From positions 1-20,774 of the forward strand of contig JAFGGQ010000177.1 in NCBI GenBank assembly GCA_016930435.1: a stretch of 20,774 bases of DNA, in the 5' to 3' direction. A program made the position numbers and the translations under genes. Under the pieces are notes generated by a model. The model saw only the letters and a list, made by a program, of their open reading frames with translations, was not told the origin of the DNA and searched no databases. This DNA comes from a bacterium (GTDB lineage Bacteria; UBP14; UBA6098; JAFGQG01). Shown piece after piece: positions 5,853-18,001 of the stretch (position 1 is its first letter; each line of letters opens with the position of its first letter).

Positions 5853-7622
5853 TTATAACGGCCAGAAAAACAATATCAGGGGTATGCCAATAAGCAAAAT
5901 AATCAATTCAAGAAGTAATCCCATTCTTAAGTAGTCGCTGAATTTGTATCCGCCGGGGCCCATTACAAGGGTATTGGATTGATGTCCTATTGGTGTGAGG
6001 AATGCGCATGATCCTCCGACTGCAACAGCCATAAGAAAAGGGTCGGATGAAAAACCCATTCCTTGAGCCACATTAATGGCAATAGGAGCCATCAGTACAA
6101 CAGTAGCGGCATTATTTATGACATCAGACAACATCATGGTGATAATAAGGATGAGAGCGAGCAGAAGCCATGGTGGCGAATTGTTCCCCAGGTTCATAAG
6201 TATGTTTGCCATAAGATCTGCACCCCCAGTGGTTTCCAGCGCCGTTCCTACCGGGATCATAGCCCCAAGAAGCACGATTACGGTCCAGTCGATGCTATCA
6301 TATATCTCTTTCAAGGGCAAAAGACCGGTAAGAGTCACGCCAAGTGCCGCCAATGTAAAGGCGATATGTACTGGGAGCAAACCGATTATGATAAGCACAA
6401 TTGAGGTAATGAATATGGTAAGGGAGAGCAAGATTCTCTTTTGGAAACCAATCCTAAGGCCCCGCGGGGCAAGGGGTAGGCAGCCCATAGCCTTAATTGC
6501 ATCATCAATTGTCTGGGAACGCCCCTGCAGCATTATTACATCACCGGCGCGGAATGCGATGTGGTCCAGTCGCTTGTGAATTTGTTTATCCCTCCGCGAT
6601 ACCGCAAGCAGGTTTACCCCATAACGAGTCCTTATCTTTATGCCGGAGGCAGTCTGCCCCGTCAGCGGAGAGTCTGGCATAACTACCACTTCATCAATGT
6701 TAATATCTTTCGAACCAACAGCATCTTTCCTGAACTTTTTACCACCAACCAGTTCCACGCCTGTGTCATCAACGAAGGTTTTTAATGAATCCGTATCGGA
6801 TTCCAGGATGATGATATCGTTGCTTATCAATCCTTCGTCATCACCGGGCGCATGAATCCTCTTTTTCTTGCGCACTAAGCCGAGGATCTGTACATCAGCC
6901 TTCAGACTCGCATTTAGTTCTCCGATGGTCAATCCGCAAATCTTCGAATTTTTTGTGACCTTTACCTCGGTAATATAATCATCGATCTGAAACGATTCCG
7001 TCTGAGACTTTTTACCGGATCGCTTTGGCAATAGCCGCCATCCGGCAAGCGTTATAAACAATAGGCCGGAAAGCACCAATCCTACGCCTACCGGTGAGAA
7101 ATCGAACATACCAAACGTTTCTCCTGTTTCACCCGCCCTGAATGTTGCTATAATAATATTTGGGGGCGTGCCTATCATCGTTGTCATACCGCCTAAAAGG
7201 GAGGCGAATGCCAATGGCATGAGCAGTGAAGAAGGGGAGTTGCCGCTCCTCTTGGCCATGTTAAGCGCTACGGGCATAAGTATGGCAAGCGCACCGACAT
7301 TGTTCATAAAAGCGGAGGAAACCGCTACAAGAAGTGAGAGGGTGAGTATCTGGATGGTAATATTATCACCGACCCTGGAAACCCATTTACCCAAAACATC
7401 GATAAGACCCGAATTTTCAAGGGCTTTTCCGATGATTAATACCGCAGCTACGGTTATTACCGCAGGGTGCCCAAAACCGGAAAAGGCCTTTTCAGCCGGA
7501 ATAATTCCAAGCACCGACAGTGCAAGAAGGGCGATAAGAGCCACAAGATCGTGGCGTACCTTGCCCCATACAAACAATCCGATTACGATAATGAGGGTTA
7601 TAAAAACGTAAATATGATCCAT
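5853..7622 (-). CDS. SLC13/DASS-family anion permease with two TrkA-C (RCK_C) domains
   Basis: This 589-aa inner-membrane transporter is probably a sodium- or proton-coupled carrier of dicarboxylates, sulfate or a similar anion; the substrate cannot be read from sequence. Membrane segments cover about residues 4-195 and 395-588. The two halves carry the inverted-repeat hallmarks of the family: MNN at 106-108 with GTPPN at 151-155, and INN at 502-504 with GHQSN at 546-550. Between them, about 212-292 and 300-380, are two hydrophilic TrkA-C domains that bind a ligand in related permeases and channels and may gate transport. The length is typical for this two-RCK architecture (known in the YbiR/SLC13 group). 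The start ATG (7620-7622) has no good Shine-Dalgarno site. The 5' flank is repeat copy 1, ending 19 nt upstream. The gene is convergent with the LVIVD gene. Confidence 0.88.
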   Translation of the reverse strand: MDHIYVFITLIIVIGLFVWGKVRHDLVALIALLALSVLGIIPAEKAFSGFGHPAVITVAAVLIIGKALENSGLIDVLGKWVSRVGDNITIQILTLSLLVAVSSAFMNNVGALAILMPVALNMAKRSGNSPSSLLMPLAFASLLGGMTTMIGTPPNIIIATFRAGETGETFGMFDFSPVGVGLVLSGLLFITLAGWRLLPKRSGKKSQTESFQIDDYITEVKVTKNSKICGLTIGELNASLKADVQILGLVRKKKRIHAPGDDEGLISNDIIILESDTDSLKTFVDDTGVELVGGKKFRKDAVGSKDINIDEVVVMPDSPLTGQTASGIKIRTRYGVNLLAVSRRDKQIHKRLDHIAFRAGDVIMLQGRSQTIDDAIKAMGCLPLAPRGLRIGFQKRILLSLTIFITSIVLIIIGLLPVHIAFTLAALGVTLTGLLPLKEIYDSIDWTVIVLLGAMIPVGTALETTGGADLMANILMNLGNNSPPWLLLALILIITMMLSDVINNAATVVLMAPIAINVAQGMGFSSDPFLMAVAVGGSCAFLTPIGHQSNTLVMGPGGYKFSDYLRMGLLLELIILLIGIPLILFFWPL

Positions 7623-8287: not shown

Positions 8288-8731
8288 ATGAATAACCTGC
8301 TCAAACTATCAGAATCAACATCACTCGCACTCCACATGATGGTCTTGCTCGCTGAAGATACCAGAAGATTCCACACCACCGAAGAGATCGCCAACGCCAT
8401 ATCCGGCTCCAGGCACCACCTCTCAAAGGTCATACAGAGACTCGTAACCGAAGGATTGATCGTCTCCAAAAGCGGACCCGCGGGTGGTGTTATGCTGGAA
8501 CGCCCTCCCGAAGATATCTCCTTCCTCGATATCATCGAAGCACTGGAAGGAAAATTTCTCGAACAGGACTGCTTCCTGGGCCGAAAGGTTTGCCGCGCCA
8601 AAAAATGCATTCTCGGTAACCTGGGCCATCAGTTATTCAAAAAGACACGGGAAACCTTGATAAATACGAAGCTTTCAAATTTCATACCTGCCAATCATAA
8701 GAAAAAATCCAAGCCAAGGAAGGAAAAATGA
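8288..8731 (+). CDS. Rrf2-family transcriptional regulator with three-Cys cluster motif
   Basis: This 147-aa DNA-binding regulator belongs to the Rrf2 family (IscR, NsrR, RirA, CymR). Residues 1-60 hold the winged helix, including the recognition part 'SGSRHHLSKVIQRL' (39-52). The wing 'KSGPAGGVML' (61-70) matches the family pattern K-x-G-x-x-GG. Cys95, Cys102 and Cys107 fall where IscR and NsrR ligate an Fe-S cluster, but the spacing here is C-x6-C-x4-C rather than C-x5-C-x5-C. Sensing of NO, oxygen or iron-sulfur state is therefore likely. The C-terminal tail is lysine-rich (KKKSKPRKEK). AAGGAG (8275-8280) sits seven bases before the ATG. The stop overlaps the cupin start (ATGA, 8728-8731), so the two are translationally coupled. 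The probable operator overlaps its own promoter. Confidence 0.9.
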   Translation: MNNLLKLSESTSLALHMMVLLAEDTRRFHTTEEIANAISGSRHHLSKVIQRLVTEGLIVSKSGPAGGVMLERPPEDISFLDIIEALEGKFLEQDCFLGRKVCRAKKCILGNLGHQLFKKTRETLINTKLSNFIPANHKKKSKPRKEK

Positions 8732-9063
8732 ACAAGACACCACTTAATCTGCCGCATTCCAAGGTAACCGAACTGGAGAAACTCGTCAATTACCAGCCAA
8801 ATTCAATAGTAAGCAGTACGCTGATCGACAAAAAGGTGGGCACTATCACCCTGTTCGCCTTCGACCAGGGACAGGGCCTCAGCGAACATTCCGCCCCTTA
8901 CGATGCCTTCGTTTTCCTCCTGGACGGTAAAGCCGAATTTTCAATACTGGGAAAACCCTACCCGGCTGAAAAGGGCGGGATGCTCATCATGCCGGCAAAC
9001 GACCCCCATGCGGTAAAAGCAATTACCCCTTTTAAAATGATGCTTGTCATGATAAGGGAATAG
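8728..9063 (+). CDS. Small single-domain cupin protein
   Basis: This 111-aa single-domain cupin (COG1917-like) has no signal peptide and is therefore cytoplasmic. Motif 1 reads 'GLSEHSAPYDA...LLDG' (50-67): His54 is present, but the usual second His (H-x-H) is replaced, leaving S-A-P. Motif 2 reads 'MPANDPHAVKA' (88-98) with His94. The metal site would therefore be incomplete or use other ligands, and a binding or sensory role is as plausible as catalysis. From memory, cupins with the EH-x-APYDA signature often sit beside hybrid-cluster-protein and CooS-type genes; this should be verified. The start overlaps the Rrf2 stop and has an AAGGAAGG ribosome site (8716-8723). It is followed by a 148-nt gap with a tandem repeat before cooS. 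Confidence 0.85.
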   Translation: MNKTPLNLPHSKVTELEKLVNYQPNSIVSSTLIDKKVGTITLFAFDQGQGLSEHSAPYDAFVFLLDGKAEFSILGKPYPAEKGGMLIMPANDPHAVKAITPFKMMLVMIRE

Positions 9064-9096: not shown

Positions 9097-9211
9097 ATGG
9101 ATAAGGCTTAGAACGCCGAACAGACTGATTGTAATTATAATCGGGGATAAATTCAGAAAGGGAAAAATAATAGAATAATCTTCGAAATACTTTTCAGGGA
9201 GGTGCATTTAA

Positions 9212-11116
9212 ATGGACAAGAACAGGATTTCACATCATGAATCGGTTGTTAGGATGTATGATCGCCTGAAGGCGGACGGGATGACTAATTTATGGGATCG
9301 TTACGAGGCGCAGGGGATGGGCGGTAATCCTGACCAGCGCTGCCCCTTCTGTATGGGAGGTGTTCGGTGTGACCTGTGTTCCAACGGCCCCTGCCGGGCT
9401 GATGTGGCCAAGGACAAACGCGGTGTATGTGGCATTACCGGCGACGGCATGGCAATGAGAATGATGCTCCTTCGCAATGTTATGGGTTCCGCAACTTACC
9501 AGTACCATGCCGATCAGACCATCAAGACACTGCGCGCAACCGCGAAGGAACAAACCCCTTATAAGATTTCAGAACCAGAGAAACTGATGGACTTTGCTGC
9601 CCGGCTGGGAGTGGGTACCTCTGGTACTAATGAGGAAGTAGCCCTGCGCTTTTGCGACTATGTTGAAGGCGAGTTTAATAAAAAATATTACGAACCCAGC
9701 GAGATCGTCGAAAAGCTTGCCCCAAACGAAAGAAAGGAACTTTGGAAAAAGCTGGATATCTTCCCCGGTGGTATATACGCCGAGATGATGTTCTCCACAA
9801 GCTCATGCCTGACTAATGTTGACGGCTATTATGTCAGTTTAGCATTAAAGGCAATGAGACTGGGCATTGCAATGGCTTACCAGAGCCAGATCGTGAACGA
9901 GTTCTGCCAGGACATCCTGTTCGGCATTCCCAGACCTCACAAGATGCGCGTGGACCTTGGTGTCCTTGACCCGGACTACGTAAACATTCTTCCCAACGGT
10001 CATGAACCGTTCCTGGGATTTGCCTTAGTGCAGGCAGCCCGGAAGCCGGAATGGCAGGAGAAGGCAAAAGCAGCCGGCGCAAAAGGACTTCGCATTATTG
10101 CTAATATCGAGACAGGGCAGGAGATGATACAGCGCTGGGAGATGGATGATGTATTCTATGGCTTCACCGGTAACTGGATTATGCAGGAAGCGGTCCTTGC
10201 CTCCGGTTGTGTAGATCTCTTTGCAGCGGATATGAACTGTTCTATGCAGGTCGATCCCATGTATGCCGATAAGTACCACTTCAAACTGGTGCCGGTAAGC
10301 GAATTGGTCGTATTTGAAGGGGTAAATGAGCGCATTAATTACAAACCGGAGAAAGCCGAAGCCCAGGCAGCCCAACTTTTGGAGATGGCAATAGCCAATT
10401 TCCCCGTGCGGAAGAAGAACGTTGAGGCGATCACCGGTCTGCCGATGAGCGAAGCGGTGGTAGGGTTCTCAACGGAAAGCATTTTAGCTGCACTGGGCGG
10501 CACCCTGGAACCCCTGCTCGAGGCGATCAAAAACGGCGCTATCCGGGGTGTAGCGGGATTGGTATCCTGTACCTCCCTTCGTGACAACGGGCAGGATGTG
10601 CATAGCGTAAAGGTAGCCAAGGAGCTGATCAAAAGGGATATTCTGGTATTATCGATGGGCTGCGGTAATGCCGCTATGCAGGTTGCCGGACTGTGCTCAC
10701 CGGAAGCAAAGGAGCTGGCTGGACCCGGACTGAAGAAGATATGTGAAGCTCTTGGCACTCCACCGGTGCTGAGTTACGGCACATGTACGGATACTGGCCG
10801 TGTGGCAGACCTTATTCACCATGTATCCAATGCACTGGGTGGGGTAGCCATTCCCGACCTGCCTATGGTCGCAGCGGCACCTGAGTATATGGAGCAGAAA
10901 GCCACCATTGACGCCATCTTCGCCCTCGCATTCGGATTATATACTTATGTAAATCCCATACCTCCGGTTACCGGCGCTCCCAACCTGGTGAAGCTGTTAA
11001 CCGAGGATATCAAAGGAGTTACCGGAGCATTACTCGATGTAGAAACTGACGCGGCAAAGGCTGCCGGCAATATGCTGGCACACATCGAGGCAAACCGCAA
11101 AAAGCTGGGAATTTAA
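9212..11116 (+). CDS. cooS: CooS-family (Ni-CODH-like) protein lacking one active-site Cys; probable hybrid-cluster-type enzyme
   Basis: This 634-aa protein has the usual length and full-length scaffold of the anaerobic CO dehydrogenase catalytic subunit. AGGGAGGTG (9196-9204) lies seven bases before the ATG. The B-cluster cysteines are C53, C56, C61 and C73. The D-cluster pair is C44-x2-C47, not the usual C-x7-C. C-cluster counterparts by motif are H264 (NGHEP), C343 (MNCSM), C453 (VSCTS), C484 (MGCGN) and C525 (YGTCTD); K563 is kept. The expected second Cys of 'CCTGNE' is Glu300, in 'NIETGQE'. Of the His ladder (H93, H96, H99, H102 in CODH-II) only His99 remains. Deviant CooS proteins missing one C-cluster Cys, such as C. 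hydrogenoformans CooS-V, hold an Fe/S/O hybrid cluster and slowly reduce hydroxylamine instead of oxidising CO. I infer a similar chemistry here. No cooC, cooF or acetyl-CoA synthase gene is nearby. Confidence 0.9.
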   Translation: MDKNRISHHESVVRMYDRLKADGMTNLWDRYEAQGMGGNPDQRCPFCMGGVRCDLCSNGPCRADVAKDKRGVCGITGDGMAMRMMLLRNVMGSATYQYHADQTIKTLRATAKEQTPYKISEPEKLMDFAARLGVGTSGTNEEVALRFCDYVEGEFNKKYYEPSEIVEKLAPNERKELWKKLDIFPGGIYAEMMFSTSSCLTNVDGYYVSLALKAMRLGIAMAYQSQIVNEFCQDILFGIPRPHKMRVDLGVLDPDYVNILPNGHEPFLGFALVQAARKPEWQEKAKAAGAKGLRIIANIETGQEMIQRWEMDDVFYGFTGNWIMQEAVLASGCVDLFAADMNCSMQVDPMYADKYHFKLVPVSELVVFEGVNERINYKPEKAEAQAAQLLEMAIANFPVRKKNVEAITGLPMSEAVVGFSTESILAALGGTLEPLLEAIKNGAIRGVAGLVSCTSLRDNGQDVHSVKVAKELIKRDILVLSMGCGNAAMQVAGLCSPEAKELAGPGLKKICEALGTPPVLSYGTCTDTGRVADLIHHVSNALGGVAIPDLPMVAAAPEYMEQKATIDAIFALAFGLYTYVNPIPPVTGAPNLVKLLTEDIKGVTGALLDVETDAAKAAGNMLAHIEANRKKLGI

Positions 11117-11422: not shown

Positions 11423-11428
11423 TTGATC

Positions 11429-13531
11429 ATGAAGAAATTAGTATTAATGATCTTGTCTATCTCATTGCCCTTATGGGCCCAAATTCCTCAGACTATAAAT
11501 TATCAGGGGAAGTTGACCGATCCCGCCGGGGTAGCTATTGAAGGCACAAGGGACATAGTATTCAGTCTTTATAACGATGTTTCCACTGGTACACTGCTGT
11601 GGACTGAATCCCATAGCGGGGTTCCGGTAGTAAAGGGGTTGTTCGATGTGGTCTTGGGTGAATTAAATCCTCTGAACCTGCCCTTTGACACCCAATATTG
11701 GATGGAACTTGATGTTGAAGGTGAAACGCTTTTCCCCAGGCAACCGCTTTCCACGGTCCCTTACTCATTCCGGGCGCTCTGGGCGGATAGCGTCTCTGGG
11801 GTATCAGTGATCACCTATATAGATTCAGTCAACTACATCGACAGCATTGCCTATATCGACTCGATAGTCTATATTGACAGCCTTAGTTTTGCGGACTTCA
11901 TTTCCTATATCGACAGCATCAATCATATTGACTTTATAAGTTATATCGACAGTATTGGCTATATCGACTCTATTACATGGATCGATTCCATAGGCTGGGT
12001 AGGTCATACGGTCTGGGCGGACAGCGCGCATTGGGCCGGTTATGTTCACTGGGATTCCATTGACGGAATACCAGGTGGTTTTTCAGATGGAGTGGATAAT
12101 GAAGGTATCACTTCCATTGAGAGTCAAACTGGTCCTGCTATCGATATTGCCACCGCCGGTACTGGCCTTTCCGTAGCCGGAGCGGGGAATGTCATCACGT
12201 TTACCCATAGCAGCGATGGGGATAACGATGCTAATAATGAATTGCAGACCATCACGGGGAGCGGTACTTCTTCTTTTACCCTTTCCGATGAGGGCGGCAC
12301 GATCACCCTGAACGGCACCGGTGGCGTAGATGTAACCCGGTCCGAAAACACCTTGATCATCGACGCTGCGGGAGCGGGAGAGGCTAACCAGACCATAATC
12401 ACCGGCGCGGGGGTAACCGGCGCGGAATCACCGGGAACCTCCGGGAATTTCACTATAAATGTTGGGGAGGGCTGGGGAATATCGACCACGGAAACGCAGG
12501 TTTCGGTTAACCAGACCACTCTCGATGGGCGTTATGCTTTGAGTAGCGGTAATGTAACCGGTAGCGGAAACGCTACCCGTGTAGCCTTCTGGAATACTCC
12601 TAACACCATATCTTCAAATGCAAATTTGTACTGGGATAATAGTAATAACCGACTGGGAATAGGTACCGGTAGTCCTTCCTATCCCTTGCACGTAATTGGT
12701 GACCGGGTTTCTTTAGGAGGGTCTAACACACTGACTTCTACCAGCGCCAATAATATAGCTATCGGCTCCGGAATTAATCTGTCGGCAGGAAGCTCTGCCT
12801 GGTACACTCATATCGGTATCGGCTACAACGCAGATGTTACAGCTACATCCTGCGCCTTAGCCCTGGGATATACCGTAGCCACCAGCCAGGGCTACAGCAT
12901 CGTGATGGGGATAAATTCCGAGATAACCGGCAGTGGCACCGGTTCACATGTTATCGGTAATCAAAGCAGCTCTACTGCAAGTAACGGTTACACATTTGGA
13001 TCAGATTGCGATGCCACTGCTACTCAAGCTATGGCTATCGGTTATAATGTTACCAATGATGTAGGAACTTCGGTAGAAATAGGCGCTTCATCAAGCGGAA
13101 CTGGAATATTTGTTAACAGCTCTAATAATGTTGGGATTGGGACTACCAGCCCTACATATAAACTGCATGTGAGCGGACGGATTAAATCCGATGGGATTAA
13201 TGAAACTTCAGATGCCCGGTTCAAGAAAAATGTTCAACCCATCGAAAATGCCCTTGAAAAGGCGCTAGCCCTGCAGGGAATCACCTTTGAGTGGAATCAA
13301 GAAAAAATGGGAGAGGATATGCAGCTGGGTTTGATAGCGCAGGATGTTGAAAAAATCCTGCCGGAGGTAGTGAATACGGATGAAGATGGCTATAAATCCA
13401 TAAGATATTCCGTAATGGTCGCCCTACTGATCGAGGCGTTAAAAGAACAGCAGGCGGAGCAAAAGATCCTGATGGAAAAGATTTACCTTCTTGAAGACGA
13501 ACTCCATGAGATCAAGGAAAGACTGGAATAG
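11429..13531 (+). CDS. Exported tail-fibre-like surface protein with C-terminal peptidase S74 chaperone domain
   Basis: This 700-aa protein starts with a signal peptide (MKKLVLMILSISLPLWAQ). Residues ~20-115 form the N-terminal domain common to these proteins ('INYQGKLTDPAG', 'PFDTQYWMELDVEG', 'RQPLSTVPYSFRA'). Residues 130-207 are 13 tandem hexads of the form aromatic-I-D-S-[IV]-x. A Gly/Thr-rich shaft follows, then YadA-head-like repeats (about 420-570: 'NNIAIGS', 'ALALGY', 'AMAIGY', 'NNVGIGT'). The end is a peptidase S74 / intramolecular chaperone domain: SDARFKKNV with the Ser594-Lys599 dyad used for self-cleavage in phage endosialidases, then 'LGLIAQDVEKILPEVV' and a terminal coiled coil (about 665-700). 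The family forms trimers. It probably acts as a surface fibre, not a phage protein, as no phage genes are near. No sorting domain is seen; the S74 domain occupies the C-terminus. Confidence 0.88.
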   Translation: MKKLVLMILSISLPLWAQIPQTINYQGKLTDPAGVAIEGTRDIVFSLYNDVSTGTLLWTESHSGVPVVKGLFDVVLGELNPLNLPFDTQYWMELDVEGETLFPRQPLSTVPYSFRALWADSVSGVSVITYIDSVNYIDSIAYIDSIVYIDSLSFADFISYIDSINHIDFISYIDSIGYIDSITWIDSIGWVGHTVWADSAHWAGYVHWDSIDGIPGGFSDGVDNEGITSIESQTGPAIDIATAGTGLSVAGAGNVITFTHSSDGDNDANNELQTITGSGTSSFTLSDEGGTITLNGTGGVDVTRSENTLIIDAAGAGEANQTIITGAGVTGAESPGTSGNFTINVGEGWGISTTETQVSVNQTTLDGRYALSSGNVTGSGNATRVAFWNTPNTISSNANLYWDNSNNRLGIGTGSPSYPLHVIGDRVSLGGSNTLTSTSANNIAIGSGINLSAGSSAWYTHIGIGYNADVTATSCALALGYTVATSQGYSIVMGINSEITGSGTGSHVIGNQSSSTASNGYTFGSDCDATATQAMAIGYNVTNDVGTSVEIGASSSGTGIFVNSSNNVGIGTTSPTYKLHVSGRIKSDGINETSDARFKKNVQPIENALEKALALQGITFEWNQEKMGEDMQLGLIAQDVEKILPEVVNTDEDGYKSIRYSVMVALLIEALKEQQAEQKILMEKIYLLEDELHEIKERLE

Positions 13532-16477: not shown

Positions 16478-18001
16478 CTAATTAAAGGTTCCCTGCTTGG
16501 TGGCTTCTACTCTTTGTTCGTGGGTCATCTCAGCAAGTTTTTTCACTTCATCGATCTTCAATTCCAGTCCATTAGCTACATCGGTGCCATATCCGGGATC
16601 GGCTTTATAGAAGATCGCTGCTTGGCGGTACTGGATTCGTTTCTGAGCATTGCAGAGATGGGTAGTTATATTGCCTATAAGGTTTTTCCGGTCAGATTCG
16701 GACATCACCCGGCGGTAGAGTTCTCCGGCCTGGAAATAATCTATATCGGTCAGGACATAGGGTTCACGGGCAGCGGTACCGGAGTATTCTGACGGCGGTT
16801 CCGCTATCTCGTTGTTTGGGGAAGGGCCTCCAAAGCTATTGGGATAGTAATTTGGTGCAGAGCCGCCGTTATCGCCATAATTCATCATCCCGTCGCGTTG
16901 GTAGTAATTTACCTCAGCCGCTTTTGGGCGGTTTATGGGAAGGAGATGGTAGTTCGGTCCCAGTCGATGGAGATGGGCATCATGGTATGCGAACAATCTG
17001 CCCTGCAGCATGCGGTCAGGAGACGGAGCCATCCCCGGTACCAGGTTTGCCGGCGAAAAAGCCGCCTGCTCTACCTCCGCAAAGTAGTTCACCGGATTAC
17101 GATCCAGAACCATTCGGCCAATTGTGATGGGCGGAAAATCGCCGTGGAACAACACCTTGGTGACATCAAAGGGGTCAAATTTATACTCTTTAGCTTGCTG
17201 GGGAGTCATTACCTGGATCTCTACCCTCCAGGATGGATAATCTCCCCGTTCGATAGCCTCGAATAGATCCCTGGTAGCATGGTCGGGATCCTGGGACTTT
17301 ATCTTATCAGCCTCTTCCCGGGTAAGGTTCCGGATCCCCTGTTCGGTCTTAAAATGGAGCTTTACCCAGAAATACTCCCCTTTTGAATTGTACCACTTGA
17401 AAGCGTGTCCGCTATAACCGTTCATGTTACGGAAGGTCGCGGGAGTGCCCCGGTCTGAGAAGAGAATGGTAACCTGGTGAACGGATTCAGGAGTGAGTGA
17501 TAAAAAATCCCAGAACATATTTGCGTCCTTCAGGTTGGTTTCAGGATTACGTTTCTGGGTATGTATAAAATCGGGGAATTTGAGGGGGTCACGGATAAAA
17601 AATACGGGGGTATTATTTCCGGCCATATCGAAATTGCCCTCTTCGGTATAGAATTTTACTGCAAATCCCCGGGGGTCCCGTTCGGCATCTGCAGAGCCCT
17701 TTTCACCGCCAACAGTCGAGAAACGCGCAAAAACCTCGGTACGCTTGCCGACCTCCGAGAGAAACTTAGCGTTGGTATATTGAGCTACATCTGAGGTCAC
17801 CTCAAAATAACCGTGGGCTCCCGCACCCTTGGCATGGACAACCCGTTCCGGAATACGCTCCCGGGTAAAATGACCCATCTTCTCCAGAAAATGAGTGTCC
17901 TGTATAAGAATCGGACCCTTCTTGCCTACAGTTTTACTTGCCTGGTCATTATCAATGGGTACACCAAATCCTGTTGTATATTTCTTTTTGTCTTCTGCCA
18001 T
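16478..18001 (-). CDS. katA: Monofunctional haem catalase (small-subunit, clade 3 type)
   Basis: This 507-aa cytoplasmic catalase converts hydrogen peroxide to water and oxygen. The distal pocket is intact: His56 in '[12 protein letters not shown]', the Ser/Thr-Val motif 'FSTVGGE' (94-100), and the Asn in '[13 protein letters not shown]' (129 or 130). The proximal ligand is Tyr339 in '[14 protein letters not shown]', preceded by Arg335. The length and the absence of a C-terminal flavodoxin-like extension put it in the small-subunit group. The start is fixed by AAGGAGGG on the minus strand (18009-18016), seven bases upstream. Its probable promoter is 18051-18078. The stop lies 19 nt from repeat copy 2, beyond which the plus-strand block begins. 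In an organism with a CooS-type enzyme this implies exposure to oxygen or peroxide. Confidence 0.96.

Follow-up and report, generated by a model that had tools for sequence, protein, structure and literature searches.

A CooS-V-type 'CO dehydrogenase' with a glutamate at a C-cluster cysteine position and a probable Hcp-like role in stress response

The cooS-V-type gene and its surroundings

The stretch of DNA analysed here, hereafter the window, comprises 20,774 nucleotides of a bacterial contig. Three genes follow one another on its plus strand, encoding an Rrf2-family regulator (8288..8731, 147 aa), a small cupin (Cupin_2; 8728..9063, 111 aa) and a 634-aa CooS-V-type protein (9212..11116), the last an open reading frame preceded by the ribosome-binding site GGGAGG at 9197-9202. 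The cupin gene shares its first 4 bases with the end of the Rrf2 gene, and 148 bases separate the cupin gene from cooS-V. Short AT-rich palindromes lie around this gap, at 9127-9142 (GATTGTAATTATAATC), 9043-9056 and 9202-9217 (GTGCATTTAAATGGAC, which spans the cooS-V start codon); they are no more than possible regulator sites. The regulator carries the motif C-x6-C-x4-C and may be an Fe-S sensor; it scores far below the cut-off of the NsrR equivalog and is 31-36% identical to the Rrf2 proteins encoded next to hcp.

The host genome (2.85 Mb, 90% complete) yielded no other gene of the prismane/CODH family (PF03063). Elsewhere in the window, the minus strand encodes a monofunctional haem catalase (16478-18001; Pfam Catalase, 645 bits), a further oxidative-stress gene about 5 kb from cooS-V, and a 589-aa CitMHS/Na-sulfate-type transporter with two TrkA-C domains (5853-7622). 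Downstream of cooS-V on the plus strand is a gene for a 702-aa surface-type protein (11423-13531), which has a stretch of 'YIDSI' repeats and ends in a Peptidase_S74 endosialidase chaperone domain; this domain is usual in phage tail fibres, and its setting here is chromosomal.

Active-site residues and membership of the CooS-V subclade

The preliminary description of this gene had pointed to a glutamate, E300, in place of the first C-cluster cysteine of CO dehydrogenases (CODHs), and both the sequence and the alignments bear this out. The codon at 10109..10111 reads GAG, in the context '...IANIETGQE...', and the encoded residue aligns with the Cys of 'GICCTGNE' in CODH-IV (6elq) and with the Glu of 'IESGQE' in CooS-V of Carboxydothermus hydrogenoformans (7b7q); it corresponds to Glu295 of CooS-V and Cys295 of CODH-II (PMC9311411). 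The other ligands that had been listed are likewise present and aligned. The active-cluster ligands are H264 (10001..10003; CooS-V His259, also aligned in the Hcp profile), C343 (10238..10240; Cys338), which directly follows N342 (Asn337), C453 (10568..10570; Cys449), C484 (10661..10663; Cys480) and C525 (10784..10786), the equivalent of the persulfide-forming Cys521 of CooS-V (PMC9311411). The B-cluster [4Fe-4S] cysteines form the pattern C53-x2-C56-x4-C61-x11-C73 (9368..9430), and K563 is retained. To these we add three features beyond the earlier list: the cysteine pair C44-x2-C47 (9341..9352), corresponding to the type III D-cluster that is a bridging [2Fe-2S] cluster in CooS-V (PMC6344411, PMC9311411); Y96 (9497..9499) at the position of the CODH acid-base histidine (PMC6344411); and E561, a second hybrid-cluster glutamate (CooS-V Glu556, Desulfovibrio vulgaris Hcp Glu494), which together with K563 occupies 10892..10900 (PMC9311411).

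These residues place the protein in structural group D-1 of the clade D 'CODHs', whose defining features are the type III D-cluster, a first C-cluster Cys exchanged for Glu, an acid-base His exchanged for Tyr, and a retained Lys with a Glu two positions ahead of it (Inoue et al., PMC6344411). The window protein has C44 and C47 for the D-cluster (two cysteines, Cys41 in CooS-V), E300, Y96, K563 and E561. Among 96 aligned rows, the set C47/Y96/E300/N342/E561/K563 occurs in all 88 D-1 rows, taken as the rows with Glu at position 300, and in none of the 8 others, so E300 is neither chance nor sequencing error. A cysteine ligand supplied from another position would have undone the initial reading of the active site; no cysteine is conserved in place of Cys295 in the D-1 alignment, and on this ground we rejected a true CODH with an alternative cysteine ligand.

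Database and tree searches agree with this assignment. A phmmer search of PDB sequences gives 680 bits to C. hydrogenoformans CooS-V and 391 bits to the next relative. A tree of 50 proteins resolves into three groups, with D-1, including 7b7q and the window protein, at a support of 100/99, the other CODHs at 97/100, and Hcp at 100/100, separate and attached by long branches. The AlphaFold model of the window protein, which is without cofactor, has a pLDDT of 82.5 and a pTM of 0.88, with low confidence at residues 40-65, and its best Foldseek match is CooS-V. The fold cannot decide the active site, since the VIA-align Z-score of CooS-V (50.1) falls within the range of canonical CODHs (44-52); class III Hcp is lower, at 26.7. 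The preliminary description had called for an alignment with CODH, CooS-V and Hcp, a CooS/Hcp tree and a model of the fold. With the ligands matching CooS-V residue by residue, the window protein inside the CooS-V clade, and CooS-V the top structural match, its claim of a CooS-V-like enzyme is well founded.

The expected misannotation as CO dehydrogenase is also real, because the window protein passes TIGR01702, the NCBIfam equivalog for the 'anaerobic CO dehydrogenase catalytic subunit', with 727 bits against a cut-off of 478. The complete C-cluster set of a functional Ni,Fe-CODH, His and five Cys, is broken by E300 at the Cys295 position, and of the acid-base pair the Lys is kept while Tyr96 replaces the His. 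The Hcp model TIGR01703 gives 34 bits against a cut-off of 360.8; this score and the separate Hcp clade rule out that the protein is Hcp itself. A comparison of the D-1 and Hcp profiles reaches a probability of 96% and matches H264, C343, C453, C484, C525, E561 and K563 to Hcp residues, so that from the Hcp ligand set (His, two Glu and four Cys) the His, one Glu and the four Cys are paired. E300 is not aligned to an Hcp Glu by hhalign; the equivalence of the E300 position with the Hcp Glu comes from published structures (PMC9311411, PMC6344411).

The exchange of Cys295 for Glu is a published shared derived feature of the CooS-V subclade (Jeoung et al., PMC9311411; also PMC6344411), so E300 correctly recognises a known subclade and not a new variant. 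By its sequence, the window protein is a member of this described subclade. The observation of E300 itself is not new; the genomic setting is the new part.

Gene neighbourhoods of D-1, hcp and CODH genes

Scanned with an alignment of three sequences, 84,980 species genomes gave 80 D-1 loci of 74-80% identity, spanning WOR-3, Chloroflexota, Desulfobacterota, Actinomycetota, methanogens, Asgard archaea, Bathyarchaeota and others. When all neighbours were clustered, the top family at D-1 loci, by a wide margin, was a protein of 270-290 aa with an N-terminal dicluster ferredoxin domain. It was present at 22 of the 78 loci, at 20 of them no more than three genes away, and two cupin families and Rrf2 came next. 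Rodionov et al. (PMC1274295) described FrdX as a ferredoxin-like partner of hcp, and knockdowns of hcp and of frdX in Clostridioides difficile are each NO-sensitive (PMC12915319). The ferredoxins adjoining hcp at two loci (L108, L110) are homologous to the D-1 neighbour over its full length (HMM scores of 293-307 bits over positions 2-266 of 268), and FrdX next to hcp is 43-44% identical over 288 aa to the ferredoxin next to cooS-V. The FrdX proteins of hcp loci, all from one broad taxon, form mostly a separate group from those of D-1 loci. The cupins adjoining hcp in Methanosarcina-type relatives and in class relatives of the host are 51-54% identical to the cupin beside cooS-V in G001, a genome of the host's class; the window cupin is remote (20-27%) to both the hcp-type and the G001-type cupins.

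Counted within 1.5 kb after removal of duplicates, FrdX, cupin or Rrf2 accompanies 29 of 87 D-1 genes, 16 of 42 hcp genes and 0 of 62 canonical CODH/CdhA genes, always on the same strand as the D-1 or hcp gene. The Fisher p values for these counts, 1.9e-8 and 6.3e-8, are optimistic, as the rows are not phylogenetically independent. The neighbour profiles were built from D-1 neighbours and therefore favour D-1; the comparison of hcp with CODH is free of that bias. Around D-1 genes the markers fall steeply with distance, numbering 38, 4 and 4 in successive kilobases, with none farther. Some two thirds of D-1 genes lack all three marker neighbours. In a sample taken without selection from one phylum, Desulfobacterota, markers accompany 9 of 30 hcp genes and 0 of 24 CODH genes (p 0.003); the D-1 count there is 0 of 6, and the arrangement is therefore not universal. 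The latest CODH survey reported no clear pattern for clade D gene neighbourhoods (PMC13056359), and we did not find in the literature searched a statement that D-1 genes have the neighbours of hcp rather than those of CODH genes. Two Lokiarchaeota D-1 genes (L076, L087) lie among genes for flavodiiron protein, rubredoxin, rubredoxin reductase, desulfoferrodoxin, cupin and FrdX.

Within the class of the host, CooS-V occurs in 2 of 17 genomes, the host (G000) and G001, whose protein is 77% identical to the window protein, and Hcp occurs in 3 of 17 (G004, G008, G009), numbers too low to count as mutual exclusion. The G001 gene sits in a long cluster that reads Fur, FrdX, cupin, CooS-V, DHOD-like, Hrb, flavodiiron, ferritin, DsrE, IscS, IscU, rubrerythrin-like, peroxiredoxin, desulfoferrodoxin (superoxide reductase, SOR) and rubrerythrin; the hcp of G008 stands in the order Fur, Hrb, Hcp, flavodiiron, ferritin, peroxiredoxin, desulfoferrodoxin (SOR) and rubrerythrin. 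Seven neighbours are common to the two clusters, at 35-70% identity. The host genome has a G001-syntenic O2/NO-stress cluster on another contig, C145 (L230, 4406-13518), without the FrdX-cupin-CooS-V cassette: Fur and the DHOD-like gene are adjacent there, followed by flavodiiron, ferritin, DsrE, IscS, IscU, peroxiredoxin, desulfoferrodoxin and rubrerythrin. The host cooS-V is located apart from this cluster, in the window behind Rrf2 and cupin, and G004 and G009 show the order Rrf2-hcp, followed in G009 by a cupin. From the layouts of G001, G008 and C145 and the Rrf2-hcp pairs it follows that the cooS-V cassette and hcp occupy corresponding places. A full-length FrdX was not found in the host genome at its 90% completeness.

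Of the 50 D-1 genomes searched, ten contain just one PF03063 gene, and five of these ten are one-chromosome assemblies (G062, G071, G077, G080, G099), so D-1 can exist without CODH and without Hcp. Many D-1 genomes also have Hcp-like or CODH genes, and replacement is therefore not general.

Proposed function and relation to known systems

Building on the residues, clade, fold class and shared neighbourhood described above, we propose that the window protein is a CooS-V (D-1) hybrid-cluster enzyme, most likely with an Hcp-like role in the response to nitrosative or oxidative stress, a reading to which we assign a probability of about 0.7. What we infer comprises the part in the stress response, control by the Rrf2 protein, the identity of the substrate (NO, or an N-O or O-O species related to it) and that of the electron donor. 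The cluster chemistry is carried over by analogy from CooS-V, the structure of which revealed no Ni and a redox-switching [4Fe-3S-nO] cluster held by Glu295 among others, with a channel that opens in the reduced state only (Jeoung et al., PMC9311411). CooS-V neither oxidises CO nor reduces CO2 and slowly reduces hydroxylamine, at 20 M-1 s-1, a catalytic efficiency about two orders of magnitude below that of a typical Hcp, and its NO reduction did not rise above background (PMC9311411). The preliminary description had relied on these properties of CooS-V; its statements on the Fe/S/O cluster and the lack of CO turnover stand, and hydroxylamine use is weak evidence of function because of the low efficiency and the lack of NO reduction.

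The enzyme would be a homodimer of CODH fold in which an Fe/S/O hybrid cluster, held by H264, E300, C343, C453, C484, C525 and E561, takes the place of the Ni-Fe C-cluster. Electrons would enter at the bridging [2Fe-2S] D-cluster (C44, C47) and pass through the [4Fe-4S] B-cluster to the hybrid cluster, which in its reduced state would bind a small oxidant and reduce it, with no interconversion of CO and CO2. Encoded together with an Rrf2 repressor and a cupin, the protein would take on the role that Hcp has in other anaerobes; in relatives, its partner would be the Hcp ferredoxin FrdX. Rrf2-family regulators often carry Fe-S clusters that are damaged by NO or O2, as established for NsrR and IscR, and such damage to the window regulator would release expression under stress.

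The reading furthest from this proposal, a working Ni,Fe-CODH in which Glu300 stands in for the Cys ligand, can draw on an intact CODH scaffold, on the conservation of five of the six C-cluster ligands and of Lys563, on the TIGR01702 score, and on a genetic study in Methanosarcina acetivorans that hinted at a part for D-1 in CO use (cited in PMC6344411). We nevertheless consider it highly improbable: CooS-V has the same Glu and shows neither Ni nor CO/CO2 activity, the C295E variant of CODH-II likewise loses Ni and CO oxidation (PMC9311411), the acid-base His is a Tyr, the marker neighbourhood, common to Hcp and all 27 D-1 loci at which it was observed, is seen at 0 of 62 CODHs, and no other member of the CODH/Hcp family was found in the host genome. 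The last point also weighs on the idea that D-1 proteins are redox sensors or auxiliaries of a real CODH, as proposed for clades C and D from co-occurrence. Clade D does co-occur with active CODHs, and an eLife 2026 survey proposes auxiliary or regulatory roles for it (PMC13056359), to which the very low published turnover would be suited; however, D-1 is the sole family member in the host and in the 10 of 50 genomes noted above, and its common neighbours are those of Hcp and not of CODH, which makes a sensor or auxiliary role improbable here.

A closer alternative keeps the stress response and changes the substrate: the enzyme may be a reductase for something that Hcp does not use, such as peroxide, a superoxide-derived species, a sulfur or selenium oxide, or another low-potential substrate. 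The potentials of CooS-V lie about 300 mV below those of Hcp, from which its authors argue for a function different from that of Hcp, and NO reduction was not detected (PMC9311411); the clusters of G001, the host and Lokiarchaeota are, moreover, rich in rubrerythrin, SOR, peroxiredoxin and flavodiiron genes. Against this, the tests made so far place both FrdX and Hcp in the NO response (PMC12915319), and members of that FrdX family are found beside D-1 genes. The published assays used artificial donors, and the low rates could stem from the missing native donor. On balance we think a non-Hcp substrate unlikely, if with an appreciable chance of being right. For the Hcp-like role, the evidence from neighbours, which is indirect, suggests a common stress response with Hcp and not an equal reaction rate. 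A broader idea, to which we would give even odds, is that D-1 arose independently as a second hybrid-cluster enzyme and can be exchanged for Hcp in the nitrosative/oxidative stress response of anaerobes, bacterial and archaeal alike. The two would use one partner ferredoxin, FrdX, and similar kinds of regulator, and in related genomes one would have taken over the position of the other in stress operons.

So far, the CooS-V group has been studied through a single purified protein of low activity. For its physiological role, the neighbour statistics and the exchange of Hcp and CooS-V within one class give a specific and testable answer, an Hcp-like role in which FrdX may donate the electrons and the substrate may be NO or hydroxylamine (or peroxide). 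If this is correct, a set of 'CO dehydrogenase' genes of anaerobes should no longer be read as a sign of CO metabolism, a caution that extends to genomes with no other CODH, such as that of the host.

Among characterised proteins, CooS-V (7b7q) is the closest, at about 51% identity, with a common fold, Glu at the Cys295 position, and equivalents of its D- and B-cluster cysteines, Asn337, Glu556 and Lys all kept in the window protein; the window gene differs in lying in an Rrf2-cupin unit and in a genome where no further CODH or Hcp gene was found. Canonical Ni,Fe-CODHs (CODH-II, CODH-IV and D. vulgaris CODH) have in common with the window protein the scaffold, the B-cluster, five of six C-cluster ligands and Lys563, but the window protein has Glu for Cys295, Tyr for the acid-base His and the extra Glu561, and the canonical genes lack the marker neighbours seen around D-1. 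Hcp of classes I-III has the active-cluster ligand set in common with the window protein, has neighbours (FrdX, cupin, Rrf2, flavodiiron, rubrerythrin and SOR) that overlap those of D-1, and in one class relative holds the place of CooS-V in the stress cluster, whereas the window protein has CODH-type N-terminal cysteines with the bridging D-cluster pair and belongs to another clade.
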